Shown: piece after piece, positions 23,401 through 48,650 of the stretch
Numbering within the stretch: position 1 is the stretch's first letter
Layout: every line of letters starts with the position of its first letter
Source of the DNA: Gonapodya prolifera JEL478
Taxonomy: Eukaryota > Monoblepharomycota > Monoblepharidomycetes > Monoblepharidales > Gonapodyaceae
DNA length: 64,000 nt
Assembly (NCBI GenBank): GCA_001574975.1
Contig: KQ965750.1
Coordinates: forward strand, 372,001 to 436,000
Direction: 5' to 3'
The notes under the pieces: model-generated
What the model was told of the DNA's origin: nothing
The model's database searches: none
The model's input: only the letters and a program-made list of their open reading frames with translations
Made by a program: the position numbers and the translations under genes

Positions 23401-25297
23401 ATGTCGGTGGCAACTTAAAGGGGACCCGTACGAAATCCGTCCCTTTGCGCCCTCCATCGACATTACAAGTCGCTCCAAAGGTTTTACAAAACCATGAAAG
23501 AAAGCGTCGTTCTCCCAGAGCGGGACATGATGCTGGAGTCGATGTTGAACAATACTCCAACATTGGGTTCCGATGATGAAGAAAACCAATGAATCCGTCA
23601 CCTTGGTGCCATCCTTCAGTGAGAAGCGCTCGAGGTTTCTCTCCCATTGCAATATGTCTCCGCTTGATCCGACACGGCCACAAGATGGGTGTGTTGTCAA
23701 CTAGGAAGTTGCCGTTTTGCAGAGGGATCAGGGGGACACAACGTTGGCGAGACAAGGGAAAACTCCCCGGCTTGTAGAATGCGAATTGCATTCAGTTGTT
23801 CTCTTTCCAGATGGACGAAATTGCGAGTGCGATTCCCGTGGGAGCGCCCTGACTAAGCTACACACCTCATAGACCTGCGTCCATGCTCGCTCTCGTTTCC
23901 CATCCAGCAACAGCCTCGCGACGAGCTTATCATCTTCAACACCAAGCCACCCCAGGACTGGGTTTTCTCCGCCTTCATGAAGGAGTGCGTCAGTTTCCGA
24001 CCCGGGCAGTACCATCGTATGAAGAAGATACTCGCGATCAGAGTGACGAAGTTAGCCGTTCGGCATTGCAAAAGGTGGTTGCGAGTAGGTGGAGAGAAGT
24101 ATGCTCACGTCGTGGGGAGTCTGGTGGAAGAGGAAGCTATCCGCCCAGATATCTGATTCGGAAATGTCTCACATGTCTTGCGCATTTGGTGACAGTACAT
24201 GCACACCATTGAGGAGGTCTCCCACACTGAAGCCTTCCACATTCTCTTCATTCGTTCCCGTTGCGCCGAATGCAACGTCAGTGTTGGTGCCGGCTCACCC
24301 TGAATTGAGTCACTTGGTCTCTCCAGGCCAGCATTTGCGAGCAGAAGGCGGCTCCCCCTCGAGAAACCGAAAAGCAGACAGGTGAGGGGCTCCCAAAGAC
24401 AGAACAGGTAACGAGAAAAACGTCGCACCAGGTTGAAAGGAGACAGCGGCTGGGTTGGGCGTTGGTCCAATCGGCAAGGTGTGTTGATCACAGGGACATG
24501 CCAGAGAAGGGACAACAGCCCACATAAAACATATTTTGTTTATAAGTGAAATCGGTTTATGCGAGTTGGAATACGCCCCGGTCCAGGTGGAATTGCATCC
24601 GGAGTCGTCAATTGAGAGAGTTCTTCATAGCATCCCAATGCAACTCGGAGATCCCAACGAGGTACTAACGAGCTTGAATCCTGTGTGGGACGTATACCGT
24701 GGGCGCGCTCGTCGGGTTGTCTTTTGAACATGCGCTTGTTTGTGGTTGCTTGTTTTGTCCGCGGAGGAGCGCGGTCAGAGCGGGAGCGAACGGGAAGGCA
24801 AGGGCGGAATAGCCAAGGGCACGTAATCCATCTGTCCTTCGATGGTATTCGTGTTCCATCGGAGGTTGGTGAGGTGCAACAGTACTTTCATCACAGTGCC
24901 GGCCTTCCCCTGACACCATGCTCACATTTTTTCAGGACTTTTGCGGAACAACCCCACCCATCATTTAACGATCAAGTAATAAATTCAACAAAAACCTGTC
25001 TAGTAGATACGACCAATCAAAGCGGTGAATTCGGTCGCAGGGAGACTTGGGCGGTCGGGTCCGTCTCCCTTCGCATGAGGCAATCTTGACAAGCCCTCCG
25101 CTTCCGGAGCCACTGCTCGTCTCCGCCTCTCAATTACGTGAGTTCGCAAAAAAAAAAAAAAAATCAAAATCAAAATCAAAGTTTTGCTCCTCTCAATCGA
25201 CGCCAACACCCCTGCGCCACACTCTTGCACTGCCTCCCCCCAGTCCGGTCTCTGCCCCCGAAACTCCCTCCATTTCCGTCTGGAATCGCTCACCTCG
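20475..25297. other. 4.8 kb without a confident gene
   Basis: Many short overlapping frames exist on both strands but none has a recognisable domain, and no exon chain could be assembled. The dispersed repeat at 21,590-22,100 is listed separately. A minus-strand stretch at 24,200-23,350 has several moderately long frames with GT-AG-like borders and could be a decayed or unfamiliar gene. A run of A followed by ATCAAA repeats lies near 25,147-25,185, just before the next gene. Confidence 0.4.
21590..22100 (-). repeat. dispersed repeat D1, copy 1 (partner at 52,500-52,935)
   Basis: The minus strand here matches the plus strand of 52,500-52,935 over about 430 bases. Landmarks shared exactly or nearly so are TTTGCGTGAGCGATCGGCA, GACGAGCGATTGCACCGAA, CGTCGCCGGATGGACCGATCC and GGCTTCCACATC or its variant. 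Both strands keep partly conserved peptides (for example DGPIPP and FDGR..R.S), but indels shift frames between copies. This suggests a duplicated, now decaying gene or element. Confidence 0.75.
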
Positions 25298-27870
25298 ATG
25301 CGAACTTGGCGGTTACCGCTGCCTATCGTGGCTCTCGCTGTGGCAATCGCCCTCGTTGCAGGGCCCGCCCCAACTGTACTGGCAATTCCCAATCGGACAG
25401 TACCAGCCTGTCCCACGGGATCGTTTAATCCAAATGTAGACTATTTTCCGGATAAGGTGGCACCAAGTGGGTCTCTCGGTGGTCTCAACTCGTGGAATTG
25501 TCGAGTGAACTCAATGACCTGGTCTGTCTCTGGCATTCTCATGTCTCTCCTACTTCCCCAACCGCATCCAGCTATCTCTAAGTACTGGACGATCGAGTAC
25601 CACGGGTACTATAAAGTTTTGAAGAACACCCTGGCAAACCAGACGTATTTGCTCGGTAAGTGCGCATTGATAGCCCTTCCTCGCTCCACCTTTGCCTAAA
25701 TGTTCGAGTGATATTTTTAAGTACAATGCGACACTCCTGTACCAACGGTTTCCGGAGCGAAACCATTCGTTGTTCCAGCGTTTCTTGTTGGGACGAGCAG
25801 TCGTACTATGACCCGTTTCTTGGAAGTAAGTTGAGAAGCTCCTGATCCACTCGAATGGAACTCGCTTCCCTGGAAAACTGCCACACAATGAAAACGGATC
25901 AGTAGCATGTGAATGTTTCTGCATAACTGCATTCACTGACTCGTCCTCCAATCCCATGCAGCGTCTTTCCCTAAGGGAGCGCATTCTCTACGTCCCTGAC
26001 ATCCAACTCATCACATCTGCTTGTGTGCTGAAGATGGCTCAAGACGGCTACCTTAGCTCGATCCCGTCGACTTGGACAGGCACTGGCGTCAATGTTATCT
26101 TCGACCGCGGTCCTGGGTTAGCGAACGAGACAACTGCGAACATTGCGGCGTTGAGTGTAATGGTGAGTCCGGTACTTTGTCGTGATGAGTTAATCGTGTA
26201 TTTGTGAAATGCGGTTCTCGGCCATGACCAGGTCTCGTCGCTGTACGAAGCATCACCACTCGAGAAATTCGAATGGATAAAGTTTGTTGCGGCCTTCTTC
26301 AACCTGGAGGCTCTGGCGAACAACATCTTCGACGCTGTCACCGCTCGGTACCAATGTAATTCGAACGCCATCGAGGGTTCCTTCGCGACTTATGGAGGGA
26401 AGAGACCAGTCGTTGCATGGATGGGTTTCAACGGGGACAGCTTCGAGACTACTGATTGGACCTACAAGAGTCAAATGATTCGCGATGCAGGTAAGGAATC
26501 TCTCTACTCCTACCCCTTCCTGGATGACCCGAACATCGTAACTTTTCACCATTTTATAGGTGCTACTGCAATCGTAATCCCCTCGAAAGCCCTTCTTCCG
26601 GACGTTGTGAAATCCCTCCGCGAAGCAGATGTGCTCATCGATGACACTAACAGCACCACCCGGCTCACCACCATTCGTGTGCTCTATGGACTCGGCAACG
26701 TGACGGTAAATTCAACCGACCCAGGGTGGTCGTTTATAAAAGAGGGGAGGGTTTACAAGACCGATAAGCTCCTCAATGGGGGATCACTTGCGACATCCAC
26801 TGGTGAGCCCGCCTATTTCCTTCCAATTTCCTGGCTTTTGAAAATGCACCTACACCTTCTGATCTCTCAAGACTTTGAACAATCTTTCTGGGCGATGCCG
26901 GACTATGTCCAAATGGACCTCATGCAAAAACTGTATCCGACTTTCAATCCATCTTGGAATGAATCCCTGTGGTTCAGAAATGTAGGATCTTGTGAGTTAA
27001 AGGGTTTTGCGGATTTCGTCACTTTCTAGTACTTCACTCTCACTCATTCAACATTGAACAACAGACGAAATTCAACTGCCTGCAAGCGCATCACGATGCC
27101 CAAACGGAGACACCTCTACGCCCTTCTCATCGACTTGGCCGCTACTCACTTGCATCCAAACCACCAATGTGTCCCTCAATGTCGCACAAAACCGCACTTC
27201 TACCGAAATTATTGATACAGGGTCTTCACTCACTCTCGTTGCACCGACGGGAACGGCCGTTCCTGCCAGAAGCTCACCCGCAACTACCACGTCGGCGGCT
27301 ATCGTTGCGCAGGCTACGGGGCAGAGCAACGCCAACCAGTCAAGCCAAGGATCCTCAAGCTTCCCCATTGCAGCTGTTGCGGGGACCATCGGCGCACTTT
27401 TGGCGATCGCGCTCGCTATGGCAGGCTACCTCGTGTACCGACGCAACCGTCGGACGTACATGCGCGATCGCCCAACTGCTATCCCACTCACATTTACGGC
27501 CGGCCCTGGGGCTCGCACCATGTCTGCTCGACTGAAGCGGTGGACGGGCGGAATCGTTGGCGGATCTCGCCGACGAAAGGGTGATGAGGATGGCGCGATG
27601 CTCGATTCCTGGCCTGCAGCACCATTGGACGCGAACTCCGGTGCCAATCCATTTGCGGTGATGGAAGCGGCGCAGGAAAAGGAGTCTCTCACCGGAGCGG
27701 TTGGCGCACCAGCTGCAGTCCCTACCGCCACTGAGTCCCAACCAGCGGCGACGGTGGGTGAGAGACTCGGTGGCCGGTGGACGAAGATGAACCCAGAGGG
27801 GTCGTTGATGGCGGAGGCAGAGGAGAGCGAAGCCTTGACGGCTGGAGCCAGCCGACCATCCACCTCGTAG
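25298..27870 (+). CDS. membrane-anchored TroA/FecB-like substrate-binding protein, copy A
   Basis: Predicted type I membrane protein. An N-terminal signal peptide (about residues 1-28, ALAVAIALVAG core) leads into a family segment with NPNVDYFPDKV. Then YYKVLKN..ANQTYLLVQCDTP, the strand-turn VVPAFLLGTSSRT, YVPDIQLITSAC, EKFEWIKFVAAFFNLE, ADVLIDDT and FWAMPDYVQMDL follow in the order seen in eukaryotic proteins related to bacterial periplasmic metal, siderophore or B12 binding proteins. A Ser/Thr-rich stalk precedes one membrane helix (near 27,360-27,430, IAAVAGTIGALLAIALAMAG) and a cytoplasmic tail of about 150 residues. There are about nine exons; the first is 25,298-25,466 and the second starts at 25,572. 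Copies B and C share intron sites, for example after the DYFPDK segment and after RFLE. The ligand is unknown. Sensor or uptake partner is inferred; no transporter gene lies nearby. Confidence 0.78.
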
Positions 27871-28175
27871 GTTTGAAGGTGTGAAGGACTACAATGTGGA
27901 CTTGTCAATATGAGTGATGCTTGGCTCGATGAGGAACTGACGATCTGCAAGCAGCATTCTGTGAGAAGGATTACTTAGTACGAGCTAGTTTTGGAGTATA
28001 TTTTCTTTTTGTACCGATCATCAAAGACGATTGGTTGTGCAACAAATGTGATAGGTCACCGAGGGTAATGGTTTTCCAACCCTAATCTATCGACACCCCA
28101 CGACGTCAACAATACAAGAAGGTGAAGAACGAGTCAGTCTAGGGCTTCGCATACACTGGATTGTGGAATAATATA
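27871..28175. other. short intergenic stretch, convergent gene ends
   Basis: Lies between the 3' end of substrate-binding copy A (plus strand) and the 3' end of the Cys-rich locus (minus strand). AT-rich 3' flanks only; no feature recognised. Confidence 0.5.
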
Positions 28176-28600
28176 TCAACTGATCCAGCGTAAACTAACC
28201 CAAGGAATTTCGGACTCTTCAAAATACTCCCAGTCAGAACCACATATGGGACACACAATTACGTAACACTCTGGGCACTTCCCTCGGCGCACCATCCCCA
28301 CGTGAACCAGTTGTGTTTACAGTTTTCAGCACGGACTCTCTTCGGTTGCGAGAAAAGTAGCAGTAGGTTAGGCACCTTGGTATCTGCACAAGTATCGCAA
28401 TCTTACCCGACATCACGGAAGTACTTTCCGCAGTTCACACATTGCTTTCCATCACAACAGTCCCAACACCTGATGCGATCGCAATTTCCACACTCATACC
28501 AGCGGTGGGTTGTGCAAGAGTCGCAAAGGAGCTCGGAATGACCACAACTACATTTTTTGCCACAAAGTCCACTGGTGACGCAATCCTCATCATCGCATAG
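28176..28600 (-). CDS. Cys-rich putative zinc-binding protein, incomplete model
   Basis: An exon at about 28,577-28,407 encodes a dense array of Cys pairs: CGKKCSCGH, CDSC, CGNCDR, CWDCC and CVNCGKYF. It ends at a clean GTAAG donor. Downstream a further frame has CPECYVIVCPICG and acidic WEYFEES, ending near 28,176. Such CxxC arrays normally bind zinc in structural or protein-interaction modules. The upstream part is unclear: a frame near 28,920-28,700 contains CSSLVRLEARDCCNV, reminiscent of a leucine-rich repeat of the F-box type, but a stop lies between it and the Cys array unless an intron removes it. The splice between the two Cys exons is also not resolved in phase. No family name is offered. 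Confidence 0.45.
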
Positions 28601-29412
28601 AAGTCAGTTCGATTCATCATCTTCAGGATCCACCACGACCTGAATTGCGTACACGATTTCGATATCGGAGATCGCATCAAATAGCAAGTCTGATGGTCGA
28701 GAATAAGGGAGGCTGAAGTCCAACACCACTGCATGCCGGCTCAATTTCACCACTACAACTTGACAACGCAGAAGAGTCAGTGCTGCTTGTGGTGTCAATA
28801 TCAGAAAACCGCTTGAGCATGTTGTCGAGGTTGACATTGCAGCAGTCGCGAGCTTCCAAGCGGACAAGACTTGAGCAACGATCCCAGAGTCTCTGTATGG
28901 CTTGCAGAGATGCCCTCCGAGCCCACTGAGTCGCGCAGACCGAACGATTCTCGCAAGAGGAGCTCCAATGTGTTCCTCAATTCTGTTGAGAAGTGCTTCA
29001 AGCGCTTTGTCCGTGATGGCGAGTCTCGTCCCTCAGTGCCGATGGATGGATGATAATGTTTACCGGATATGAGCGTCTGCAGGAGCAGCGACTTTGATTT
29101 GTGCCGAGTTCCATGTTGACAGTGAACGGCTAAAGATATTTTGCCGGTCTTTTCTCGTTACCTACACACACGGGGAGTTGGAATCTCAACTTCACATTGC
29201 TATAACAGTTCGCAACTGTATGTTTTGCATGCCAATGGAGTTATTCTGAGAATTATAAGTGACGTTCTATATTCTCAAACCCGTCTTCACCGTGAATCAC
29301 TCATTGTGGGTTAACGATTTGGTATTTTGTCGAGAAGACAGGAAACTTTCCCGAAGTATGCCCGCGCACACACACACCCCTTCCCCCAGTCGATCACAGC
29401 CCAGTACGTCAT

Positions 29413-31123
29413 TCAATTGTCAATCCACCCAGCCAGCGGTAAATCCATGGTTGTCTCAATTTCGCGTTGTTTCGAAACCAATTTGGCGCCGATATCACCA
29501 TCCGGTGTAGCAAATCCAGCGAGAAGCGCTTCTTGGGATGCAAACCATGTCGGCGGGATACTTGAGCCAGACGACATAACTGAAAGAAACAATTTGGGTT
29601 TTTGGGGAAGAAGCAGCCCCAAGAGAGATGATTGGCTCATATTTGACAGCGCTGCTTTGTAGTTCGTGGCCAAGGTAGACGCCTGATCTGGCGTCGGAGT
29701 AATCAATCCATCACGAGTACTGGCATGTTGTGATAGCATGTCAGTTCCACTTTTAGGGATTGCAGTGTCTCGAGCATTGTGAAGTGGTCCATCTCCAGAC
29801 GCAGGGGCTCTCTGAGACCGAACGCGCAGCCTATAGTGTGATCTTGGTAACAACGCATAGCGTCGTCGGGATGAGGGACTCGGCTCTGGATGTTCAACCT
29901 GCAATTGGATTTCGATTCACATGTAACGCTGGCAAAAATAAATGGCCCAAACACTCACCACAATCTCAGAGGTTGTACTAGCGGAATCGTCATCGACGGG
30001 ATCTCTCACCATAGTTACTTTCCTTCTCGTGTGCGGTATCGAGGGCTCTGGCCGTTCGACTGCCACGAAAGACCCGTCATTGACTCTCTTGGACAAGTCC
30101 ACGAACTCCTTGTGCACAACTGCAGCCGCTCCACGACCCACAACCACACGATCATAAGTACTTGACTGCCAGCCTCCAGAATTTGTCTCGCCATGAGAAG
30201 CTCCCAAAGAGTTTGTCGAAGACGTAGGAGTCGCTGCTTTCTGCAATCGTTGCCGCTCTCGAGGAGGCATTGGTGTCAGAACATGCCAAGGAGTTTCCTC
30301 GGTGTTTACATTAGCCCCACCGTCCGCTTCTGGACGCCGTGGATCTGCTCTCCAAAGAGCATTCTGTACAACTTCGAATTATCATGAAGTCAGTCAAAAT
30401 ATTCTAGCTTATCGCGCATGTGCTGAGAAACCCACTCGTCTTGTTCTTGATTTGAGCAGAGGTTTTCCCAACAGGCCGCCTTTGTCCATTGAAATGTTCG
30501 TACTGATAGCAAGCTTCAAGCAGCGCAGTCATTCTCAACGCCACAACCTATAAATCCAGTGGTAGGCGGCACTCACCATTGCAGTAATCCTCGCCGTTTC
30601 TTTTGCGCCACCGGGTCGTCGTCGACGTCTGGCAGTTACTACACACGATTTCTGGTGGGGCAAGCTTTTCAAAGACCCGTGCTAGAGGGATGATTCGGTC
30701 CATCGACGGTTCGTCGGGTTTGGTGCACCTGAATGCTCACCGGGTTCCACTCTTCGCCTCTTGGTAACGTCATATGGCCGACTGACACCATACGTTTGCT
30801 TGTACTGGAAGCAGGCTGCTAGGAGTGCATCATATTCAGCATATCTTGCGATACAACCTGGTGTCGAGGTCGACTAAGCTTCACCTACCATTGCAAAGAA
30901 GCATCTCGTCCAGTTTCCGCCACCGAGCAGTCGTGGTTGCTTTGCAGTTTCTGCATTTCCTCCCTCCGGTTTCCGGCTCAAAGTAGGGATCTGGCGATGG
31001 TAGTCGTTTGCCCGCTGTTGAGCCCTCGGGCGAGGACATTCGCGGTATGTAGTCGTACGGGTAAGCACCAGGAGCCGACATAGACGAATCGTCGTCGGAG
31101 CCAGAGTTGGGTGTACCCATCAT
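29413..31123 (-). CDS. GATA-type zinc finger protein with two fingers
   Basis: Start ATG at 31,123; the stop is TGA at 29,413-29,415. Finger 1 begins CRNCKATTTARWRK, and its second Cys pair is completed across an intron as CNACFQYKQTYGVSRP. Finger 2 begins CSNCQTSTTTRWRK and likewise continues across an intron into CNACYQYEHFNGQRRP. In both fingers the intron falls inside the second CxxC codon pair, so they arose by duplication. Spacing is C-x2-C-x17-C-x2-C, as in fungal GATA factors. A long Ser/Pro/Arg-rich C-terminal region follows, with PPRERQRLQK and an acidic DPVDDDSAS stretch, and a final exon beginning near 29,900. The protein is expected to bind (A/T)GATA(A/G) sites in the nucleus. 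The W-R-K in place of the usual W-R-R and the lack of an obvious partner domain leave the targets open. Confidence 0.85.
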
Positions 31124-31256
31124 CGTGCAGTGCGATTGTTTTCAGGGCCTTTCGGGAATGCTCCACAACTAGGACACCAAACTGTGGTCTACAGAGACAT
31201 CACAATAATAATCATATCATAACTGCCGTACCACTACTCTATCTCAAATCCCCACT

Positions 31257-33840
31257 TTACCGTCCCCTCAGAGGCGCTTCGTCGCCGTCCCCCATCATCT
31301 CCTCCAATCGTAACCACTCCCTCCTGTCGTCCGTCTCTCCCCCCGCCAAGGCAACAACGGGGGGTCGGTGGGACTCTGTCGTCGGACCTCGCGAGAAAAC
31401 AACTCCCATACCACGGAGATGGTCCTCAAAGGCACCTCGCTGGCCTCGGGCACGGTACCATATAGCAATGCCGACAACGGAGAGAATGACGACTCCGAGT
31501 GAGCCTGCGATGATACCAATGACTGCGCCCGTTGGAAGACCTCCCTTCGAGGTCCCGTTTGTTCCTCCGGCGGAGGATTGGTCACTGCTGAAGGACGCAC
31601 CCGCTCCGAGACTGCCTGGGCCCGGCTGAGCAGCGCTCAGGCCGGATTGGGACCGGCATGTGACTCGTTGGTAGCTGAGATCGAAGTCGGAAGAAGGGTC
31701 GCCGTTGGGGCATTGCGTGGAGTTTATGACTTTGAAGGGCTCGCCTGTGTGTTTGTAAGACGTTGGGCATGGATAGCTGAAAAGAGGCTGAAAGATACAG
31801 CGATCACGTACCGAGAGCGACGTTGCGCAACCACATGCGCGTCCAGTTCCTGTTGTAGAAGGGGTATGCCATGCTGATGACATCTTGCTGAATATGGTCG
31901 GGCATGGCCCAATACGATTGCTGGAAGTCTTTTGAAGGTTGAATGCACATGTCACGTTTGAACCCATTCTCCCCGAAAATGCCTCGCAGCACTTACCATC
32001 CAACGGGGACGCGCCCGCCTTCCTCCGATCATCCAACCTGAAAGCCATCCTCTTCTGAACAAACGCGTAGTCCGATTCGACGGTTGGAGACGTGAGATTG
32101 TAGACCTGCAGCAGGTCCGTGAGGGACTCGAGTGGGACGTTGCTTTCGGTTTCGTCGATGAGCAGGTCGACTTTGCTCAGGTAGCTCGGAATGCCTTCCC
32201 CACGGTCGAGCGTGACGTAGGGAAAGGGGCTGGAACCTGAGACGTGGTGGAGTTACGGTGGGTTCAAAACGACCAACACATGCGGAACAGTGAGGTGTGC
32301 GCTTACCGGTATCCTGCACCATCTTAACCTTGTATTCGTACTCCAGGGTCGCGTACATGCCGTTCGCGTTCTTACCCACCCAGGCAACATTATTAACTCT
32401 CCCCACGACCCCCGTGGCAGCTGTCAGGTTGGCCTGCGCGAGCGCGGCAGCATTACACTGGAGGACTTGCTGAACGGAGTCGAAGATTGTGTCGGCGCGG
32501 GATTCAAGGTTGAAGAAAGCTGCGATGAATTTGATCCATTCGAATTTTTGGAGGGGGAGGAATTCGTAATATGTGGAGAGCTGGGGGAAGAAGTTGGTGC
32601 AGGACATCGTGACGATAATGAAAATGGGAGCGTTTTTGTATTGAACGTAGATTAGTGACATCGAAACGAGAGTGATGCGGGGAAGGAAGCGTCAAGGAAC
32701 TCGAGCAGGCCTGCTCCGCAAAGAGCAGAATTCGAACCCACCAGGACACTCTGCCCCAACACATCTGCCTGCACGATATCAGTGACGGTCCCTTCCTGCT
32801 CCCGTGCAAAGAGCACATCCACGCCAGCTGTCTTCGCGTCAAAGCCGGGGAAAAATGGACTGTACTTGACCTTGCTCTGCGAGGAGTGAGAGGCAGGGAG
32901 AGGTGACAACGGCTGTTGCGGGAACGAAGCGTATTTGCGTCCGTAGGCCTAGACGCTGGAGCGATGCCGATGTGACGAGGGTGGTGAGTCGAGACAGTGG
33001 GTGCACAGGGTGGAAGAAAGGTTACCTCGAGAAAGCGTACGGCCGTCCGGCTCGCCGTTCCTGTGAAGTACGCGGGGACCTCGTGGAACGATGTGTTTGG
33101 TAAAACATTCGGTATTTCGGGTTTGGGAGTGCCGCATGGGTCTGAAGTGTCATGGAGATTGGTAAAATGGCCGGAAGGAAAGGGAAACGGAACACGCACA
33201 TAGAATGTAGGTGGTACCCGCCTTGCTGTTTTCGAGTATTTTATAGGATTTCGTGTATGTAATGTTCCAGAACTGGGACATCACTGTTTCCGCGGCGAAA
33301 TCCATGTTCGCCGGAGTTAATGGGATTGCGGTGAGAGAGAAGGGAACAGTAGCTCACGCGGGAATGTTTTATCGGAAAAATAGTCTCTATTAGGGTCAAA
33401 TGCTCCGGTGTATGGATATGCTGCGTGTCAGCACGTGAGTCGAAATGGTGCGAGGTGTAATGAGTTTTACGAAAAGCACACTCCAGCCTCACTGGCGCGG
33501 CGACATAGCGACTGTTTTGACAGTCGTCGAGGTAACCCTCGTGGATGTTTAAAATGACGATAGTCCAATCGGTACAAAAACAGCACCGACAAATTCGTGG
33601 GATCGTCGTAGATGGCACCACTTCCGGGGACCGATGTCCCATTCAGCCACCCAGCAGATCGGTATCCAGCCCCGAAATGCTTTCCATGGTACCAGTGGTC
33701 TCAAACCGAGATGAATGCTTGCCTGGTTTGACGCTCTGCTGAGCACGCACGACACTCGGCCCGAGACCCGCACACAGCAGTGCGACCAGCGCATACAGAC
33801 ATGTCGACCAAGACAGAAAAGAGGGCGGTAACCGGGTCAT
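31257..33840 (-). CDS. membrane-anchored TroA/FecB-like substrate-binding protein, copy B
   Basis: Paralogue of copy A on the other strand. The start at 33,840 gives a signal peptide with core LYALVALLCAGLGPSVV. Later exons give GAFDPNRDYFSDKTFP (near 33,400), FWNITYTKSYKILEN, CGTPKPEIPN, AYFTGTASRTAVRFLE, FVPATAVVTSPC, QKFEWIKFIAAFFNLE, VDLLIDET, YWAMPDHIQQDV, CPNGD and a Cys-containing juxtamembrane segment. A Gly/Ser stalk and one membrane helix follow (GAVIGIIAGSLGVVILSVVG, near 31,540-31,470), then a tail of about 75 residues. Domain order and several intron positions match copies A and C. The junction between the signal-peptide exon and the next exon is uncertain. It is divergently transcribed from copy C with about 400 bases between starts, so the two may share a promoter region. 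Confidence 0.77.
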
Positions 33841-34247
33841 CTGAGGAAGTTCATGGGAGAATCAAGAGCGTCCGCAGCGGCTGGAAGGGAGCCACAGCCA
33901 CCTGTTTGAGTCGGCAATTGTACATGAATACTTCTATGTTTCAAATAGGGATGCTGTCTGTGGCTAGACATCGATACGCTTTTATAATCTTAACGTTGCT
34001 GTTAGAAGGCGTTACATGGAAGTGGAGTACAATAATCCCACGTCTACTTGTGCATAGTGAAACGGCCTGATCAATACGGGAGGTGGAGAAATAGATTATC
34101 AAGTCTTCCTTAAATTCTGTACATGGCTTACAGAATGAAGGAATCGATTGGCTTCACGTTTGTATCGACGGTAGTTTGGTCACTTGAAAAGGGCAAAAGC
34201 ACCCACCAACCCAAATCAGGGAAGACCTGGAGCCCCGCGCCAACGCG
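33841..34247. promoter_or_regulatory. divergent intergenic region between copies B and C
   Basis: About 407 bases separate the outward-facing starts of two paralogous genes. No other gene fits here, so it must hold both promoters. I see no motif whose function I could name with confidence. Confidence 0.5.
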
Positions 34248-37065
34248 ATGCGGACTTCCGATTCCTCTGAACGGCGCCACTTGAAGCATCTGGGAAATGC
34301 CGGATGGGGTCCGATGGCAGTTGTGGCTGTTGCGATCCTCTGCTCCTCGCTGGTGCATTTGGGATCAGCCCAATCGTGCGCCAATCCTGTGCAGTACGAC
34401 AGTGGAAAGGACTACTTTCCGGACAAGGTTTCGCCGCGTGAGTCGCTGGTTGTCTCCTTGTCAGTCGTGCACGACTTGACTTAACTCTCCACTCTCCCCT
34501 GCCAGAGCTTTCAAACACGTGGAAGATCGACTACTCAAACAGTTACAAAACTCTGACAAACGTTGTGTCGGGCGAAGTCTTCGTACTGTGTGAGTTGCCT
34601 CTCCTCACATCTTCACCAGCCAGCGCGACATGCTTACAGTCTGCAATCACTTCGCCGACACAATCTGCACCCCACAAAGACCAATGCGGATCCCCCGTGC
34701 CCTCCACGGTCCCGCCCGGCGCCCACACCATTCCCGTCCCGGTCAACTACGCTGCCGTGTCCACTTATTCGGTCGCCCGCTTCCTCGAGGTACTTCTGCC
34801 TCCTCATATCTTTCCCTAATATCCCCTCTCGTAACCCCGCTCCACCGCCGTAGCGCCTCGGACTCCGCTCCCGCATTCTGTACACTCCGGACAAAGCCAA
34901 CCTCTCCTCACCCTGCATGCTTCTGGCTCCACCGACATCCCCTTCCTTCCCCCTCGCAAACGGGACGTCCGTGGATACATCGGCCGTGGTATTCCAGCAC
35001 GCGGCGCAGGATGGTCCTGTCGGGACACCCTTGTGGGGAGATGAGACCGGTGGCAAGTGGGCAGGTGTACCGTGGCAGAAAGTTGTGGTGAGTACCAGCA
35101 GTCGGTGAGGCGCTCAAGAAAGGCATAGAGTGGGACAAGAGCACAGTTGATGAAGAAGGGTATGGAGTGGGACAGGAGCAGATTTGTCCTTGGCGTACCG
35201 TACAGGGGACCGAAGCTTGACAGAGTGACACTGCTCGGAGCTGAGATCCCGTGCGATATCCTCCGTCCTCTTGTTGCCTTTCACTCACCCTTCCTCGCCT
35301 CCTACCTCAACCCCCAGCTCCACTCCAACACCACCACCTACCCACTCGCCAAGCTCGAATCCCTTTTGCTCCCACTCTCGGCCTTCTTCAACCTCGAACG
35401 CTCTGCGCGTCTTCTCATGGACCAAGCCACGTCGCTCTACCGGTGCGAGGCACAGGCGTCCGACACAGCGGCCGCGAATGCCGGGGGAAAAATTACAGTG
35501 GCGTGGGTTGGTGTCGGAGGCGGGGTGGTGGGCACGAATGATGTGGATTATAAGGAGAAGGTATTGTTGGATGCTGGTACGTTTCTCGCTTTTTGACGGA
35601 CGGGCTTCTTGGGAGTCGTGCAGAAGCGAAGGATGACGAAGTGGGGGGGTGGAGGTACCCACTGATACATAAAGTTGATTCTCCGGCGAACCTCATCCTC
35701 GAAAGGATAGATGTATGCTCTTATTGAAGTTATGGAGTGATGGAGGACGAGAGGTGTTACTACCTGGAAGACGTTAGCAATCTTTCCTACAACTCACACG
35801 AATCCTCTCCATCCAGGTGCCGCCCCGATCGTCATCCCCAACGCTGTCAACTCCCTCTCCGCTCTCCTCGCGGCCGACGTATTGATCGACGAAACCCCCG
35901 GCGTGTCAACCCTTGCTGACTTGTACAATGCTTACGGGTTCACGGACGCAGACAAGGCCCGGTTCAGGTTCTTGGCAAACGGGAGGGTGTATAGGACAGA
36001 CAGGACACGAACAAGTGGTGGAGCGAATGGTGGGCATTCGCTTGGCGATGGCAATTGTGTTTGTTGCCGTTTCACTGATTCTTTGGACGTCTGCGTCGTG
36101 ATAGATTTCGACCAGTCCCGCCTGGCGGTGCCCGAACAGCTTCAGCAGGATATTTCACACATCTTGTACCCGGGCATCAACCCTGGGTGGAAGCCTATTT
36201 GGTTGCGCAACCTCGCCGTTGCAAGTGAGTTGGGGGCTTTTTGTTCCTTCCATCAGACTTGCCGAGCGAACCACTCGACCACAACCTCGACCCCTCAGCC
36301 GACGTCGTGACGACCGTCACAACCGCCCTGTGCCCGGGTGGCAACATCTCTTCGACCCTTGCCCAGTCATACCAAAACATCACCTGCGTCGAAACGTCTG
36401 TGTCCATCATCGCGACACCGTCCGGTGCCGCCAAGATCTTCGCACCCCTTGCTGTTGGCATCCTCCTTATACTCGCGATCGTGGGAGGAGTGATTTGGTA
36501 CCGACGCCGGAAGGACCTCGCCAACCGACGCAGGAGACGGGAGGCGTACAACAAGAGGAAGGATTACCTCAAGACACGCAGGCCCATGTCGCCTGTTGGG
36601 AACACGCCGGCCTCTGGTGGCGGGTCAGGCGGTGCGGCGCACGGGGACGAAGAGGAACGCAAGGTGTGGTTGAAGATGGATGACGTGGGAGACGAACCCG
36701 GGTCTCCCGTCGCTGCCGAGCGACCACGGTCTCCACTGAGGGGCGTCGTGAGCGCGCCGACGCGGGAGGGCGATTTGGGCGAGTCCGGGTTCCCCACTGG
36801 CGACCAATACGACTGGCAGCCCGCGACGCTCGGCCCCGCCGTCGCATCGGCTGCCGAAACTGCGCGATCGCGGCACTCGTCGTCTGGAGGCCGTGGATCG
36901 CGGTCGACGTGGCGCAACATGTCAAGCGGGGAGAGAGAGCCGTGGGCGAGTTTGGGGTCGGATAGCGAGATCGATGATGATGTGGCGAGGAAGATGGGCG
37001 GGCTTGTGGATGGAGGCCATAGGCGGGACGGGAGCAGAGGGAGCAGAGGGTTTGGGCAGAGGTAA
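34248..37065 (+). CDS. membrane-anchored TroA/FecB-like substrate-binding protein, copy C
   Basis: Third paralogue. From the ATG at 34,248 (beginning MRTS, similar to MRTW of copy A) a hydrophobic signal (AVVAVAILCSSLVHLGSA) precedes CANPVQYDSGKDYFPDKVSP. Then come WKIDYSNSYKTLTN, GSPVPSTVPP, VARFLE, ILYTPDKANLSSPC, a segment with LSAFFNLERSARLL, ADVLIDETPG, VPEQLQQDISHIL and WLRNLAVA. A Cys-bearing region (CPGGN and ITCVE) leads to the membrane helix (IFAPLAVGILLILAIVGGVI, near 36,440-36,500). The basic cytoplasmic tail of nearly 190 residues is much longer than in copy B and rich in Ser, Arg and Pro. The exon near 35,260-35,580 has the most diverged ligand-domain sequence. Introns after DKVSP and RFLE match copies A and B. 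The GC-rich tail suggests phosphorylation or adaptor binding, which is speculative. Confidence 0.77.
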
Positions 37066-37389
37066 TTGACGAGTGTGGGCGTGAGTGGTTTGGGGTGCAC
37101 AGGATCAACTTTGGCAATGGGTTGGGAAGGTGACTTTGTGTGGGGGGAGGTACTTCAAAGCGATATTTAATGACGAACGTGGAAGCTTAGACGTGGGTGA
37201 GCGTTTATTCGGACGGGCCGGAAGTAACATGCGGTATTTGGACGTGCGCAAGCGTAGGACGTTATGTTTTTCACTTCAACACGCTGCATATGTGTCTTGT
37301 ACTACTGGTTGTGACTTCACAATACAAACAATCAGCAAGTACTACGCGAAATTTTTTTCCTTTCGACATGTCTTGGTGGGACGCGGTGC

Positions 37390-39421: not shown

Positions 39422-40471
39422 TCAAAACGCCTTTGGTCGTCCTCCAACCATGCCAAACCGCCTCGGATCCATGGCCATGGCCTTCATGTCGTGCTGCTGC
39501 TGCTGCTGTTGTTGCGGCTGCGGGATGATCCTCTGGCCCGTCACGACCTCCAATTTCCGGAGGAGGTCTCTGTTCTGCGCCACCTTCTCCAACGCCGGGC
39601 GGACTGCGGGGGTGACGCGGGCGCCGTGACGGAGCAAGATGTCGACGATCTCGAGGTTGGGCGTGAAATCGATGGCCTTGAACGTGGGCTTATCCTTGTT
39701 TGCGCCGTGCGTGCCCGGGTCCGACATCATGTTGAGGATGCCCGGCATGTTGATCCACAGCTCGCGCGCGGTGCCCTTTGCCTCCAAGCGTGTCTCGCCG
39801 TGCGGGTCGCGTGTGACCCCCTCCCCGATGGCCAGCTCGAGGGCGGACCCGAAATGGTACAGCGTGTCCCACGTCCCCGCGCCCTCGACGACCGTGTTCC
39901 AGATGGGCTCGCTCCACACGGCGCGGCCACGGATGATTTTCCACTCGATGGGGAGATTTGGGTCGGCGCCGTTGTCGAGGAGTAGCTGCACGAGCTGCGG
40001 GTTGTTGCGCAGGATCGCCACTGCCAGAGCGCTCTCCCCGACGGCCTGCACGTTTCGCGGGGCGAACCCCCCGACGGGTTTCTCCTTGGGCCCGCCGCTG
40101 CCGAAGAAGGACGTGGTCCATTTGGACCCTTCGTGCACGATACAGCCCAAGATGAATCGCTTGCGGGTGTTGGGATCCGCGCCGGCGGAAATGGCCGCGG
40201 CGGCCATGCGGGTGTCGCCTGCCTCGATGGCCTCGATGAGTTTGGCGCAGGCGTCGTTGTTGCCGAACTTGGACGCCTTTGCCGGGTTTCCCAGAGGTGA
40301 CGGACCGGCGCCCGACATGTGGGACGCGCTGGACCGCGAGGGCAGGCTGGACGTTGACGGGCGGCGGGAGAGAGGCGAGTGGCCAGGCGATGCGGTGCGT
40401 GCGTGCGACTGTGGCTGCTGGTCACGGTCGAGGGAGACAGTGTGCGGCAAGGGCCGCGAAAGGTGCATCAT
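39422..40471 (-). CDS. ankyrin-repeat protein, copy 1
   Basis: A 349-residue single-exon reading from the ATG at 40,471. The frame is open upstream to 40,723, but that part is low-complexity and probably 5' flank. A Ser/Pro/His-rich N-terminus of about 75 residues is followed by ankyrin-like repeats: LIEAIEAGDTRMAAAAISAG, then ALAVAILRNNPQLVQLLLDN with GADPN, and LEIVDILLRHGA. Between repeats lie family-specific inserts (EWKIIRGRAVW and LELAIGEGV). The C-terminus has a run of seven Gln (near 39,505). The insert motifs recur in the second ankyrin gene 6 kb away, so the two are paralogues. Ankyrin arrays mediate protein contacts; the partner and cellular location are unknown. Confidence 0.85.
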   Translation of the reverse strand: MMHLSRPLPHTVSLDRDQQPQSHARTASPGHSPLSRRPSTSSLPSRSSASHMSGAGPSPLGNPAKASKFGNNDACAKLIEAIEAGDTRMAAAAISAGADPNTRKRFILGCIVHEGSKWTTSFFGSGGPKEKPVGGFAPRNVQAVGESALAVAILRNNPQLVQLLLDNGADPNLPIEWKIIRGRAVWSEPIWNTVVEGAGTWDTLYHFGSALELAIGEGVTRDPHGETRLEAKGTARELWINMPGILNMMSDPGTHGANKDKPTFKAIDFTPNLEIVDILLRHGARVTPAVRPALEKVAQNRDLLRKLEVVTGQRIIPQPQQQQQQQHDMKAMAMDPRRFGMVGGRPKAF

Positions 40472-41100
40472 GGCTGCGGCGGGCAGCGGGTGCGGCGGGG
40501 CAATGCGGGAGCGGGGAGAGGGGGGAGAGAGCGGGGAACTCAGCGAGTGCGGGGCAAGGGAAAGCGCAGGGAACCGCAAGGTAAAGTTGCCTGACTTTCC
40601 AGAAACGGTTTGTTGTGTCAAGCTTTGCGCCGAGTGCCTCCCGGAGAAATATTCCATCCCCACGAAGCCTCCTGTGCAGCACACGGGGGACAGCGGAATC
40701 GCCAGGGACAGCAGCGCACACACGCCGCACAGAACTTGCGAGGGGGACGCCGAGACAATCGGAGTGGCGCGGCGGGAAGGGCGAGGTGGCGTGCTCGGCA
40801 GGTGTGGCTGTCGGAGACGTGGCGCACTTCAGGTCCCATATCATCGGAGGGAAAGCAAACCCTCAAAGGCCGCGTTCCAAAGCTTATCTGGTAAGCAAAC
40901 ACATCCGCGAATGGACAAAAAGGCAAATCGTGGGGCTGCGCCGCCTCACTGGCGCATCGTCGGTACCTGCTCCCCGTGATGGACATCTCCGATTGCGCGA
41001 TCAGCGGGTTGGGGTTTCAATTACATATGCACCAAGGATAAAATGTCGCGTCTGAAGCTAGGCTCAGCGAGATAACTCTCCTTTTATTATGAAGCTCGTT
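40472..41100. other. intergenic upstream of ankyrin copy 1
   Basis: Presumed promoter of the ankyrin gene. A 446-codon frame on the plus strand overlaps both this region and the ankyrin gene; it is rejected as an antisense shadow. Confidence 0.5.
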
Positions 41101-44100
41101 GCGCACCCAGACGTGGTCTAAGCACTTGTCCACTTCCAAATCCAAATGCATTTATCCTGTATCAGCGCTGAAGTGAGCCAAAATCGCGCTCTGTCACAAA
41201 TTTGCCTTGGCAAGCGAGTGCGTAGCAAGACTCAAGATGCGTAGACCCCGTTGCTTGAGTTTAGATTGGCAACTGCCGCTGGCTTCTTCAACAATTGGCT
41301 TATTTGATATGGCTGACCAATTGCTCCATAACAGCCGTCGTTGCCTGCAATTGAAACAGCTGGAGCTCACTATACGGATCGCCTGCACCGTTTCATTCCC
41401 CATCAATGCGACACGTCTTTCCGCGTCATCACCCATCACATGTACCAAGCCTAACACGCAACATGTCACTCTGGACAGTGCCGTACACGCGTTCGGCGTA
41501 AACTTGTCACCAATGAAACGGGACGGTCACGTCTACACTCGGGGTGAAGAGACGCCTGTAAAACTAAAATGATGCCGATGCCCCTCAGACTATGTGTTTT
41601 AGTCACGCAGGGTACGAGAATGCTCGTAGAAGTGCGTCAGGAACAGACTGATCGTGGAGCACTTACCCGTGTTCAAGGGAAGACTCATTGACGTGCTCCG
41701 AAAAGAAAATACCACGTGAAAGCTCATACGAGCATCTGCAAAGCGCGACAGCGTTTGCAGGTGTCGGCTCGTCCAGTCGTGAACATGCCCCAACAGTAGT
41801 GCAAGGCGGTTTTTGTGACTTACTCTTCTACGTACCACGAGCAACGTGTTGCACCACCTTTGTGACAAATCTTTCCACGTCATCGCATGGTACGAACCCA
41901 AGTATATCTAGATAGTGCCCATAAACACGTTCTGCGTATCATTTGTTCCCCTGGAGGTTCACTGAAGGCCCAGCGCTTATGACACCGGTGCAGAAAGGTG
42001 GTGACGTCAGGACCGAGCCCACGATCAGACCATGACAATCTGGTTCATGTTGCTTGAGAAACGTCTCTGGCTCTCCCAAAAGTGTTTTTTGATAGGGTTG
42101 TGTCAGCTCAGCTTTAAAGAGTGGTGATCGCGACGCCCCCTTGAGAGTTCACGAATCAAAGAAGACGGTCACGTCTACATCGGGTGACGAGACGCCTGGC
42201 GAACGAAATGAGACCCCTCAACTGTGCTTTTGGGTTTTGATCACGCAAGGTACGAAAGCGCGTCGGCTTCGAAACACCACCCTGGAACACTCGCTTTTGT
42301 CTCATGGGAAGGCTAGGGTAGCGCGCTCCGAAAAGAAGAAAAGAAAGCGCAATTCGAAAGCTCAGACAGGGATCCACGAAGCGCGACTGTCTGTCATCTC
42401 GTTGGATTGTCAAGTACATACAAATGAACATTCACTTTGAAGCGAGGCCCCACGAGCTGACTCGTTTCGGTGAGCTATGCTTCTGAATCAAACCTCCCAT
42501 GTACCCAATATCACCCCGAATCGGTGATAGTGACACGGGGCTATATAATTCAAGCAGCCCAGCCCAGTTTTGAATGCTGCAGGTTGTACTAGAGTGAGAT
42601 TTGCACCCGCATCAGCGTGAAAGTACTATGACACCAAGTTTGAAGTGTGAAGCTGGTTACATCATGGACTAATGCACTTGTCCACCTCTAAGACCACACT
42701 TATGCATCCCGTATCTACGCTGAAGTGTGCATCCTAACAATGAGGGGGAAAGGATGGCCTGTACATCGACGGTCACCACAAAAACAAGAGTTCGCCTTTC
42801 GACGGAGACGTGCCCTGGGAAGCGAGACGAGTCGCGCTCTGTCTCGACTTTGTCCCGGCAAATATTGAGTGCGTAGCGAGACTCAGGATGCATGGCCCGG
42901 TCCCTGCATTCGGTCGTTCGAGTTTCAACTGCCGCTCGTCAGCCGTCGTGCAGAACAGTGTCCGCAGTGCATTCTAGTCGCAAATTGTAGACCCCAGTTC
43001 GTGGAGAGTCTGGATCATTGCAGGACAAAGTGTTGGTTTGACAGGCGCATGGATCTCCATACAAGTGCAGGCCACTGAATGGAGGTAGGGAGATTATTCA
43101 GACGTGCTGACAGGATGTCTGCAATACTCGGGAGCCGAGTCACTAGAGCACGTTTCTCTCACAACTTCCCAGGCAATGTCAGTGACACAGAGGGTTGTTG
43201 GAAACACCGAGCCTGGACATCGACCCTTACTCCAGTATCCACAAAAACGTCTTTGTTAGTATTTTTGATCACTGCTCGCGTCAATTCTGCAGAAAACCTC
43301 CAACAGGGACCCTCACCGGCAACTTGAGTTTGTTGCAATGCCCAAACCCGTTGAAGTCACTGAAAATAATCATGCAATAGGACGAACAGCAACCAAAGAC
43401 GATAGATCACAGAGTCTCGTGACGTCCTTTTGTGACATGAAGTCTTTCCACGTTCGACATCACATTGTACAAACTGGAGCATATCATCTTGGATAGTGCT
43501 GTAAACGCATTCTGCGTACCAATGGAGCTCCCGGAGCACTTCTGAGACCTCAGCGCTGATAAAGCAAGAATATGACAAAGACCGGTGGTGAAGTCAGGAC
43601 CAAGTTCACAAGGCGCTGACCATGCACAGTTTCATGCCGCCTGAACAAAGTCGCTGAGTGCCCCAAATGTTTGTGATTGGGTGACTATAGCTTCGAAGGC
43701 TGCTGATCCTGTGCATCGGAGGCATGAATCAAAGAAAGCGAGCTGATGACGGTCCCTGCGCTCGGTTTCAAGGCGCGTGGAACCGGTCGCTGCGAAATGC
43801 CCCTCGCAATAGGCGTTGGAGCTTCGCTTGAGTCACTTCGTGTTTGATTGAAGCAATGTGGAGAACCACCAATTAAAAACTTTTATAAGTGGGAAGCACT
43901 CGCTGTTGTCTCACGTGAAGACCAGGGTCGACCAACTCCGAAAAGCAAACTGAATGCAAGCTTGGACGGACATCTGCGAAAAGCGACAGACTTTTTCGGG
44001 TTCTGGCCTCCTCGACAAACGTGCGCGCGAATGCCCGGCTACAAACCGGCCATCAAAGCGGCCAAACCGAAAAACATCGGAAACACTCTAAAACTTCATG

Positions 44101-46100
44101 GTAACCACACATCCCTACCAAATTCTACATCGCTCGCCCTGCCTACATCGAATCCCCTCGATCCCTGGCTTCCCCGTGGCAATCGGACAAGATTCGGCCA
44201 ACGGAAATGGACAATCGAATCGTCGATTTCCGTCGTTTCCTGATCACCATTCTTTTCTGATGACCTGCATCGACTCACCGACGGTGTCCTTCTTCCTCGT
44301 GGGACCTCTTCGTCTTGTTTGAACATCGGAAGTTTTTTCATTTCCGCCGCAACGAAAATGAGGCCCCCGCGCCTTATGAATCCGAGCACGCAAAGGAAGT
44401 GAAGAGCCGGGCTCCTCAGCAGGAGGTTCCTCGTGAGATTCTAGTGTGTTGCGCGATGAACATTTCAAGTCACCCAAAACGCGACAGTGGAGTCACGCAA
44501 CCCTGGGACTCGAGGAAGGATTGTAGAAAGGAAGTTATTTACTCGAATATGTGTACAGTGTAATCATCTTTGCATCTAATGCAAATACTGTTGCTTCTCG
44601 TGTGCCGTGCAGTGGAGTTGAGTACACTCGCGATTCGACCTGGCTTTCCGGCTGCCAAGTGAGAGATTCGAGTGATCAAAGACACGTGTTGATACTACGA
44701 CTCCGGATGAACGGTCCCAATTGAAGGCCGCCAACCAAAAGTGACAGCTATGATGGCTTCATCGTGAAGTAAAGGGGAATTAAGGAACGGTCACGTCTAC
44801 ACCCGGGTGCAGAGACGCCCAGAACACAGAATGATTCCCTCTGAACTATGTTTTTTAGTCACTGTGTACGTAAATGCTCGTAGATGTGCAACCGAAGGAT
44901 CCTTGAGCACTCGCTCTTGTCTCATGGGAAACACCAGGTCGACGTGCTACTAAACGAAAATAATGTGCGAAAGCTCAGACAGGCATCCGTGGGACGCAAC
45001 AGCCTTTTGTGACAGTGACCTGGTGCGGTCGTGACCATGCCCCAACAACAATGTGAGGTTTCCAAATTCCCTATCGATGTTTTACGAGCTAATTGCACCA
45101 CGTTTGTGACGAGTCTTTCCACGTCATCGTATGGTACCAAACGGAGTCCTAAACACATTTTGCGTACCATTTGTAACCCCGGGGCTCTGCTGAAAGCCGA
45201 GGCGGCGATAGGACGGACCAAGAAAGGTCATGACGTCAGGACCACGTCCACAATCAGAACATGGAAATTCAATTTCATGTCGGGTGAATAAGGTCACTGG
45301 ACTCCCCCAAAAGCGTTTTTATGGTGTTGTGTCAGCTTTGATGGCTTTTAATCGTGTGGGAGGGGCAATGACATGAATGAAGGAGACGATCACGTCTACA
45401 CCCGGGTGAAGATACGCCCAGAATACAGAATAATGCCCATAAGACCATTTGTTTTAGTCACCGTGGCTAAGATAATGGTAGTAGACGTGCTGATGCGAAT
45501 TTAGGAACTGGTGGAGCACACTCGCCCTCACCCCATTGGAAGACGACGGTCGACGCACTCCGAAAAGAGAACGCATCGCGAAAGTCGACACACGCATTCA
45601 CAAAATGCGAAAGCCTTTACGGGGTGTGACCTCTTTGGTGAAGATATTTGAACAATAATGCAAGGTGACATTTTCCTTCCAAGTCAAACGGAGTATAGTT
45701 GGATAGTACCGTAATGAAAACGCACTCTGCGTGAATATTCAGCCCGGAACCTCGCTCACACCCCGTCCATGCTCAAAAAAGTGGTGACGTCAGGACCAAG
45801 TCCATAAGCAGACCAGTTTCATTTTGTCCGAACAAAGTCGCTGACTCTCTCCAAAAGTGTTTTTTGTGAAAGGGTTATGACAGAAGTGAATGGGTGAAGA
45901 ATCAAAGACGGCGGTCACGTCCACGGGTGAAGAGACACCCGAAAAATGATACTTCAATAACACGGACGGCCTCCGCATGCAGACGGTGAATGAAAGGGTG
46001 GAGCACTCGCCCTTGTCCGATGGGACGACTCTACGAGAGAGAACGCCATTTGAAAGCTCAGGCTTCCACGAAATGCGGCAGTAGCTTCGATGAGACGGAT
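41100..46100. repeat. array of degenerate long repeats, about 0.5-0.65 kb per unit
   Basis: No gene is seen, but homologous segments recur in fixed order. The head, GGTCACGTCTACACCCGGGTG with variants, occurs near 41,523, 42,164, 44,788, 45,388 and 45,912. It is followed by TTTTAGTCAC, then CACTCGC.CTTGTCTCATGGGA and GAAAGCTCAGACAGGCATCC. Next come GTCTTTCCACGTCATCG.ATGGTAC (41,870, 43,440, 45,112), AACGCATTCTGCGTACCA, and GTGACGTCAGGACC (42,000, 43,590, 45,230, 45,785). The tail CCCAAAAGTGTTTTT closes the unit. A separate block at 41,110-41,290 recurs at 42,660-42,940. The units are plus-oriented, diverged and partly truncated. The CG content is normal, unlike the 2.6-17.8 kb block. The nature is unknown; it could be a decayed tandem satellite or non-coding transcripts. 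Confidence 0.75.
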
Positions 46101-46625
46101 GAGATGTTGCTAATTAGGGCTAGACCCACCAGAGTCTCGGGTCTCACCTTATGCCGTTGTAAACATAAGCCAAGATTGCAAGCTGGTCGACAAAACGGGG
46201 TCTTCAAGCCCTTCACATCTCATCCGCTGAAAACGAGACTTCCTTATCTGCTCCAGTCCCAACTAAAGCAAATTGGCGAGCATTCACCAAACAATGAAAA
46301 TTGCATTTTCGAACTCCATCATCGACGAGCAACTTCTTGCACCACCTCGTATATTACGTGCATTATAGACCATTCAAAAGCTTTTTTAAAAAAATTTAAG
46401 AAACTAGTGTTACGAGAAGATTGACATTAAGTCCGTACTTGGCCGACTCTCCTGACGTGTGACTATCAACAGCATTGACGATCAATCGGTGACGTCGTAC
46501 GTGGGGCTCTCAACCTCGTTTAAGTGGTTATCACTCCAACTCTCCCTCCGCCAAAAACGTTATCATTTCCTTCCCCTTCTGGGTTCCCAGATCCAAAGAC
46601 ACAATTATCCCTTCCCCTCCCGTCT
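46101..46625. other. intergenic, 3' flank of ankyrin copy 2
   Basis: No further copy of the long repeat and no gene is recognised. AT-rich stretch near 46,380. Confidence 0.5.
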
Positions 46626-48026: not shown

Positions 48027-48650
48027 GCGCAGGGGTTTGGGTGACAAGGAAAAGTGGATCGACTGGAAAGACTTGTCAATCGGACGAGAGATAACCTGGC
48101 AGAGGGAAGAATCAGACGATGCAGCCGATTTAGCCTTCGAAGCAAGAAGCCTTCCAATCTCAAGTACTCACCGTTCGGGAATGCTCTCTACTCAAGACAC
48201 GCAATCCGAGTTCGTAGCCTTCCCTGCTTTCCGCGTCGATTCCGTCTGCAGCCTACGATGCGATTGCAACGAATCTTGGTCGTTTCTCCCAATTTACCTG
48301 GGCGGTTTGTTGATTACGCCCTCCCTCGCCCCTGTGCGCCACATTGGCAAGCTTGCCATCCTCCGATGTTTCGCCAGCCATTCACAGACGCCCGTCACCG
48401 TTTCAGAACCAGAAGACAGTCCATGCGTTTCATTTTTGCGTCTGCAGTGATCGCGAAATGCGCACGCCTGCTATTCATTCGGTGTTTGTTGTTTTGATTC
48501 TTTTCAGCAATCGGGTCCAGACCATCACCAACAGCCTACAAGATTGGCAAACTATGAGATAATGCAGTCCGTGTATTTTTAGCGCGGAAGTAATTTTCAA
48601 ATAGCAGAACCGTTCCCCTAAGAATCAATCTGTCGCCATTACATAGTTTA
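48027..48650. other. intergenic, promoter side of ankyrin copy 2
   Basis: About 620 bases between two minus-strand genes. Short frames only; nothing recognised. Confidence 0.5.

Follow-up and report, generated by a model that had tools for sequence, protein, structure and literature searches.

What would a eukaryote do with a cluster of bacterial-type substrate-binding proteins that are tethered to its own membrane, with no importer gene beside them? This question is raised by a stretch of 64,000 nucleotides from Gonapodya prolifera JEL478 (contig KQ965750.1, positions 372,001 to 436,000 of the forward strand, referred to here as the window), in which we read both strands between positions 24500 and 37100 and found three spliced, multi-exon paralogues, A, B and C, where a sequence-only reading had placed them. 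With somewhat more confidence than doubt, we take A, B and C to be surface receptors that cross the membrane once and belong to the CBA1 (cobalamin acquisition protein 1) family; they would capture a corrinoid or another large cofactor and be taken up whole. The sequence-only reading had seen an undescribed system here, a claim which falls, since the family is already known according to PMC10828217 and CBA1 membership in a fungus is not new. What seems to be new is the link of its bacterial relatives to cobalamin, the loss of the docking surface and an expansion of tailed, pocket-altered copies with reciprocal decay of block copies.

CBA1-family membership and bacterial relatives

From gene models and hydropathy, used instead of a trained predictor, each protein could be assigned a hydrophobic stretch at its N-terminus and a single additional membrane segment, confirming the predicted order of signal peptide, binding domain, membrane helix and tail and upholding a single-pass surface topology. 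The tails differ greatly in length, as had been claimed, but the measured values are 148 residues in A, 69 in B and 189 in C, and not about 75 to 190. Ectodomain identity amounts to 38% between A and B and 33% between A and C. Seven introns are common to A and C at equal place and phase (the phases of A being derived from exon lengths), and B carries the same seven and one more upstream, in line with the conserved intron sites described before. The motifs DYFPDK, CGTP, EWIKF/FFNLE and LIDET of that description are likewise real, with DYFSDK in B, C-x-[TS]-P as the general form of the second, EWIKF...FFNLE less exact in C, and LID[DE]T as the last.

The window's own 47.56-Mb assembly, for which family counts are lower bounds, holds relatives on C20 (the contig of the window), C100, C93 (two), C29 (two), C66, C103, C86, C76 and C99. 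With a spliced profile aligner at least 13 uninterrupted models, free of frame jumps and stops, were obtained: A and C of the window, B and a fourth paralogue D in their C100 copies, two on C93 and another two on C29, and single models on C66, C103, C86, C76 and C99. Exon borders are partly rough in these models, a 3-base exon being assigned in those of C76 and C99. With one exon of A as query, a decayed copy on C100 was matched at E 6.7e-29, and relatives without interruption on C100 at 7.0e-18 and on C93 at 9.8e-14, values which exclude chance similarity. Weak matches on C2 (E 1.1) and C56 (E 0.73) were not counted, and C2 yielded no model.

Searched directly with the Gonapodya proteins, Pfam and NCBIfam gave no match of weight, and a PDB profile search gave membrane-segment and chance matches only for three proteins and a single weak match, periplasmic binding protein 4mdy (E 0.83), for ten. 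Compared singly with BtuF, FhuD, FepB, FecB and ZnuA they scored 15.0-16.8, whereas three unrelated E. coli proteins scored 17.0-20.7. A four-protein binding-protein profile reached 23.8 over 123 columns against 13.8-14.5 for permease, ATPase and reversed controls, a value attained by 0 of 60 column shuffles (one gave 23.3 over 30 columns). This weak result was superseded by bacterial relatives. While a first contig scan of genomes and one viral scan found none, the C76 protein as lead query recovered 74 loci from bacterial and archaeal genomes, mostly in Chloroflexota and also in Cyanobacteriota and others. An open reading frame (ORF) with DYFP was present in 71 of the 74, and 62 of these (370-560 aa, L084 being excluded by hand as its chosen ORF lay off the match) underlie the residue counts, the tree and the docking and pocket comparisons below. 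PF01497 was matched by all 22 relatives scanned with Pfam, out of 71 proteins, the bacterial profile found BtuF in the PDB with E 5.9e-10, and its alignment to ten Gonapodya ectodomains spans 345 columns with E 1.7e-48. By sequence, the outer domain is therefore related along its entire length to a family of bacterial class III binding proteins, which bears out the TroA/FecB-like domain proposed earlier.

Chlamydomonas and Phaeodactylum require CBA1 to take up B12, and the protein has been reported from several early-branching fungi, with CBA1-like sequences named from Allomyces, Spizellomyces, Rhizophagus, Rhizopus and Phycomyces (PMC10828217). Scoring 15 of the 16 conserved residues which the same paper lists for Chlamydomonas CBA1 (L136 was not placed), we found 12 kept in A, 11 in B, 11 in C and 12 in the C76 protein. 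In A, the block E-x7-F-F-N-x-E agrees exactly with the published pattern, and so does the distance of 37 residues to Trp255. The spacing from E206 to E218 is 12 in A and B and 13 in C (published value 12), and that from E218 to W255 is 37 in A, as published, 41 in B and 36 in C. Trp255 is tryptophan in 14 of 14 Gonapodya rows of the alignment. A, B and C would be divergent members of the CBA1 family and not CBA1 orthologues with the same pocket.

The ligand of the family can be approached from its bacterial side. In 49 of the 74 loci a cobalamin or adenosylcobalamin riboswitch precedes the match on the same strand, within 500 bases of it in 35, at 501-1100 bases in 9 and beyond 1100 bases in 5, where it perhaps serves another gene. 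Among the first downstream ORFs, one from each of 60 loci (106 ORFs listed), 40 encode a FecCD permease, seven match ABC_tran and one is BtuR/CobO. Because of these riboswitches and of FecCD as the next gene, the ligand of the bacterial family is very probably cobalamin, so that regulation and gene neighbourhood tie the wider CBA1 family to this vitamin; the link was not found in the open-licence literature searched. At loci L088, L112 and L119 cobalamin riboswitches occur on either strand, which hints at divergently transcribed genes under B12 control. The proteins of L105, L110, L111 and L117 have about 800-850 residues and two FFNxE or FYNxE blocks, and probably two binding domains per chain.

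Uptake route, pocket and alternative readings

In the complex BtuCD-F each lobe of the binding protein contributes one glutamate that is salt-bridged to the permease (Glu74 and Glu202 in PMC3741162, 72 and 202 in the E. coli BtuF translation used here), and the same paper describes the corresponding bridges of FecB, FhuD2 and FeuA as indispensable to docking. Glutamate fills the first of the two columns in all 62 bacterial rows and the second in 60 of them, against 0 of 14 and 1 of 14 Gonapodya rows, the single one belonging to B at one site. No FecCD permease was matched in this genome in a search whose control was positive in 13 of 14 genomes, in agreement with the earlier remark that no importer gene lies nearby. 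Since the docking glutamates are lost and no FecCD permease was found, the Gonapodya proteins have probably left the scheme of ATP-binding cassette (ABC) import, and uptake of a receptor type accounts for them better than an ABC importer would. Owing to their own membrane helix, absent in 62 of 62 bacterial rows, and to this probable departure, uptake of the whole receptor would be the simplest route. For CBA1, an ABC-type and an endocytic route are both named as possible in PMC10828217. The loss of the docking glutamates argues against the former for CBA1-type proteins, at least in this genome.

The cytoplasmic tails, of 69 to 189 residues in the window and up to 269 elsewhere in the genome, are otherwise hardly alignable, while W-[TLV]-[KRQ]-[ML] is common to six lineages. 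The motif scored 122 in these six tails, compared with a mean of 85.5 and a maximum of 114 in 300 shuffles, none of which was as good. Extending the test to all eight tailed lineages again ranked this stretch first, at 151 (200 shuffles: mean 120.4, maximum 145, none as good). The general form W-x-[KRQ]-[ML] is a candidate sorting signal. The C76 and C99 proteins stop directly behind a terminal hydrophobic stretch, which looks like a glycosylphosphatidylinositol signal or a tail anchor.

We propose a model in which the outer domain would catch extracellular cobalamin, a related corrinoid or some other large cofactor, the loaded receptor would be taken in whole by endocytosis, with the W-x-[KRQ]-[ML] motif as a possible sorting signal, and the ligand would be released inside the cell to feed B12 enzymes. 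Genes for METH, methylmalonyl-CoA mutase and METE are present at one locus each, and the LMBR1 family, also found in the genome, was counted with the evidence for B12 demand.

Several observations weigh against this reading of A, B and C. CBA1 membership was judged from the published residue list, and most of the listed residues occur in the bacterial relatives as well, marking the wider family more than its eukaryotic branch; even Trp255 is not exclusive, being tryptophan in 5 of 62 bacterial rows. The Pfam scan matched no family in A and no PF01497 in 10 members. Some iron-complex binding proteins outscore BtuF against the bacterial profile (best E 6.8e-12), and 25 of the 74 bacterial loci have no riboswitch in the DNA examined. 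The first docking region, in the N-lobe, is shortened or poorly aligned in Gonapodya, making the loss partly that of a whole segment. The six tails were selected after the motif had been noticed, and the motif takes a poor form in the C103 and C86 proteins and in the D copy on C100. A search of the genome for CblC gave no match, with its control likewise silent. The pocket finally makes B12 binding by A, B and C doubtful: PMC10828217 places W255, W394, F395 and E396 around modelled B12, and positions 394-396 read F-E-Q in A, F-Q-Q in B and F-D-Q in C.

Among the 14 Gonapodya rows, W-F-E is kept only in those of C76 and C99, which also keep an aspartate 12 residues past it; the C103 and C86 proteins have F-P-E, and the ten others F, a non-aromatic residue, and then Q, D or R. 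The bacterial rows show aromatic, aromatic and E in 51 of 62. A first register of the triad was rejected and corrected with these bacterial rows. In the tree, in which long branches are flagged, all Gonapodya rows lie on one side of a branch (support 100/99), and within them C76/C99 split off first (99/81), followed by C103/C86 (88/91, not firm). Branching order and triad states together therefore seem to describe a stepwise decay of the triad. Since the triad is changed, the case for A, B and C binding a corrinoid appears evenly balanced. The tail-less C76 and C99 proteins would be the likeliest B12 receptors proper, and the tailed copies with changed triad probably differ in ligand or affinity.

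A changed pocket triad in every tailed copy, apparently reached stepwise along the tree, also speaks for the alternative that these copies capture another large chelate, a siderophore or haem, in the manner of the diatom protein FBP1, with only C76 and C99 handling B12. Iron-complex and haem binding proteins share the fold class, and the FhuD-like FBP1, located at the surface and in vesicles and needed for siderophore uptake, sets a precedent for which whole-receptor uptake is proposed (PMC7676907). The tailed copies nevertheless keep most other CBA1 residues including Trp255, and their bacterial relatives look cobalamin-linked, and we consider this alternative unlikely, although to be taken seriously. 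Long and variable tails which keep a short motif could also belong to sensors or co-receptors that signal the presence of a ligand and carry nothing in; however, the Pfam and NCBIfam scans of the Gonapodya proteins brought up neither a catalytic nor a known signalling domain, and the function tested for the CBA1 family in PMC10828217 is uptake, which renders a signalling role improbable. Hardly credible is a function as ordinary binding subunits of an ABC importer, a possibility named for CBA1 in PMC10828217: the proteins do share a family with bacterial ABC binding proteins, but the docking glutamates are lost, no FecCD permease was matched in the genome, and each protein has its own membrane helix.

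The reading we favour is that of CBA1-family receptors which would be taken up whole. A more far-reaching scenario, which we put forward tentatively and rate below an even chance, is that a bacterial-type B12-binding protein gave rise to a repertoire of tailed endocytic receptors, which would have lost the docking surface, lost the triad stepwise, gained tails with a shared sorting motif and spread to different corrinoids or other tetrapyrrole-like ligands. The tailed expansion would constitute a natural set of variants, in which pocket residues setting the ligand and a tail motif driving uptake may be sought.

Gene models and the duplicated block

The features of the locus are collected below. 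In A, the intron at 25467-25571 is in frame, and a plain ORF reading retains it as protein. The first intron of B has a GC donor. Its frame jump of 1 nt sits at a T5C4 run and may be a real lesion, leaving the gene broken, or an assembly error; the C100 counterpart reads through, and the ratio of nonsynonymous to synonymous substitution rates (dN/dS) between the two is 0.14 for exons 6-9 and 0.17 for exons 2-4.

Features of the receptor locus, in window positions
Feature	Position	Strand	Basis
Gene A, CBA1-family receptor, 661 aa	25298..27870	+	manual model, corrected by spliced profile alignment
Gene A exons	25298-25466, 25572-25655, 25722-25825, 25962-26162, 26232-26490, 26560-26802, 26872-26991, 27065-27870
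Gene A membrane helix	27367..27423	+	hydropathy
Gene A tail motif WTKMNPE	27778..27798	+	
Gene B, CBA1-family receptor, 1-nt frame jump in exon 5	31257..33840	-	uninterrupted counterpart on contig C100
Gene B exons	33840-33723, 33420-33358, 33283-33200, 33141-33026, 32955-32742, 32580-32307, 32236-31997, 31928-31812, 31744-31257
Gene B membrane helix	31467..31523	-	hydropathy
Gene B tail motif WLRLEE	31299..31316	-	
Gene C, CBA1-family receptor, 658 aa	34248..37065	+	gene model and spliced profile alignment
Gene C exons	34248-34437, 34506-34589, 34680-34789, 34854-35087, 35318-35576, 35817-36029, 36105-36224, 36299-37065
Gene C membrane helix	36439..36495	+	hydropathy
Gene C tail motif WLKMDDV	36667..36687	+	
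Remnant of fourth paralogue D, decayed	23873..24864	-	C100 counterpart gives uninterrupted model

Window positions 23873-37325 are collinear with C100:177807-167347, inverted, at 65-82% nucleotide identity, and a four-gene block D-A-B-C therefore exists twice. The D remnant has 74.5% nucleotide identity to C100:177807-177539 and 66.7% to C100:177083-176543, and a single piece of 35 aa aligns to the family profile. Whole genes differ between the block copies, with A and C kept on C20 and B and D on C100; B on C20 is interrupted by its one jump, and the remaining three copies (A and C on C100, D on C20) have decayed. The expansion by local duplication inferred before is thus borne out, although it is not only local, with relatives on eight other contigs and the block present twice. 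Between A and B, the stretch 29438-31367 is 68% conserved on C100 and is perhaps an unrelated gene; the ORF at 29917-30378 (minus) inside it has no Pfam match.

Coding identity in the pairs C93/C29 (twice), C103/C86 and C76/C99 is 88-93%, with introns at 49-97% and dN/dS of 0.06-0.09 in the four pairs, pointing to old duplicates under purifying selection. Haplotypes were rejected as an explanation, given coding identity of 88-93% with introns at 49-97% and synonymous divergence (dS) of 0.28-0.49. The twin block and the other diverged pairs point to duplication on a large scale or to a hybrid origin, with reciprocal loss of genes afterwards. Further matches beyond the block connect window 39585-48000 with C100:159459-166427, one of them in the other orientation, and window 46458-48000 is 80% identical to C100:159459-160989. 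Long ankyrin-repeat ORFs lie on the minus strand at 39425-40828 and 46629-48167, and an ORF with a KA1 (kinase associated) domain reaches the window edge at 63135-63998 (-).

Comparison with known systems

With CBA1 of Chlamydomonas reinhardtii (Cre02.g081050) and Phaeodactylum tricornutum, the Gonapodya proteins have in common the signal peptide, the class III-like outer domain and the C-terminal hydrophobic helix; of the residues listed in PMC10828217, A has K78, P118, E206, F214, F215, N216, E218, P251, V253, W255, G289 and D408. The absence of a Pfam match is another common trait, Chlamydomonas CBA1 being given without one in PMC11439496. Unlike CBA1, A, B and C are devoid of W394-F395-E396, carry tails of 69 to 189 residues and are among no fewer than 13 uninterrupted models in one genome.

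The bacterial PF01497 proteins (L050-L123) share DYFPxK, C-G-T-P-x-P, E-W-x-K-F, FFNxE and PD-x4-D with them, and differ in having FecCD as the next gene (40/60), both docking glutamates and the aromatic-aromatic-Glu triad (51/62), and in the absence of a C-terminal hydrophobic helix by hydropathy (62/62). To E. coli BtuF the likeness is one of fold class, reached via these relatives, whose invariant and near-invariant glutamates align with its E72 and E202, whereas the direct match is only the weak 123-column alignment to the four-protein profile. By its description in PMC7676907, FBP1 resembles the Gonapodya receptors as a binding protein of bacterial type that a eukaryote displays at its surface; it is also seen in vesicles, and it differs in its ligand, a siderophore.

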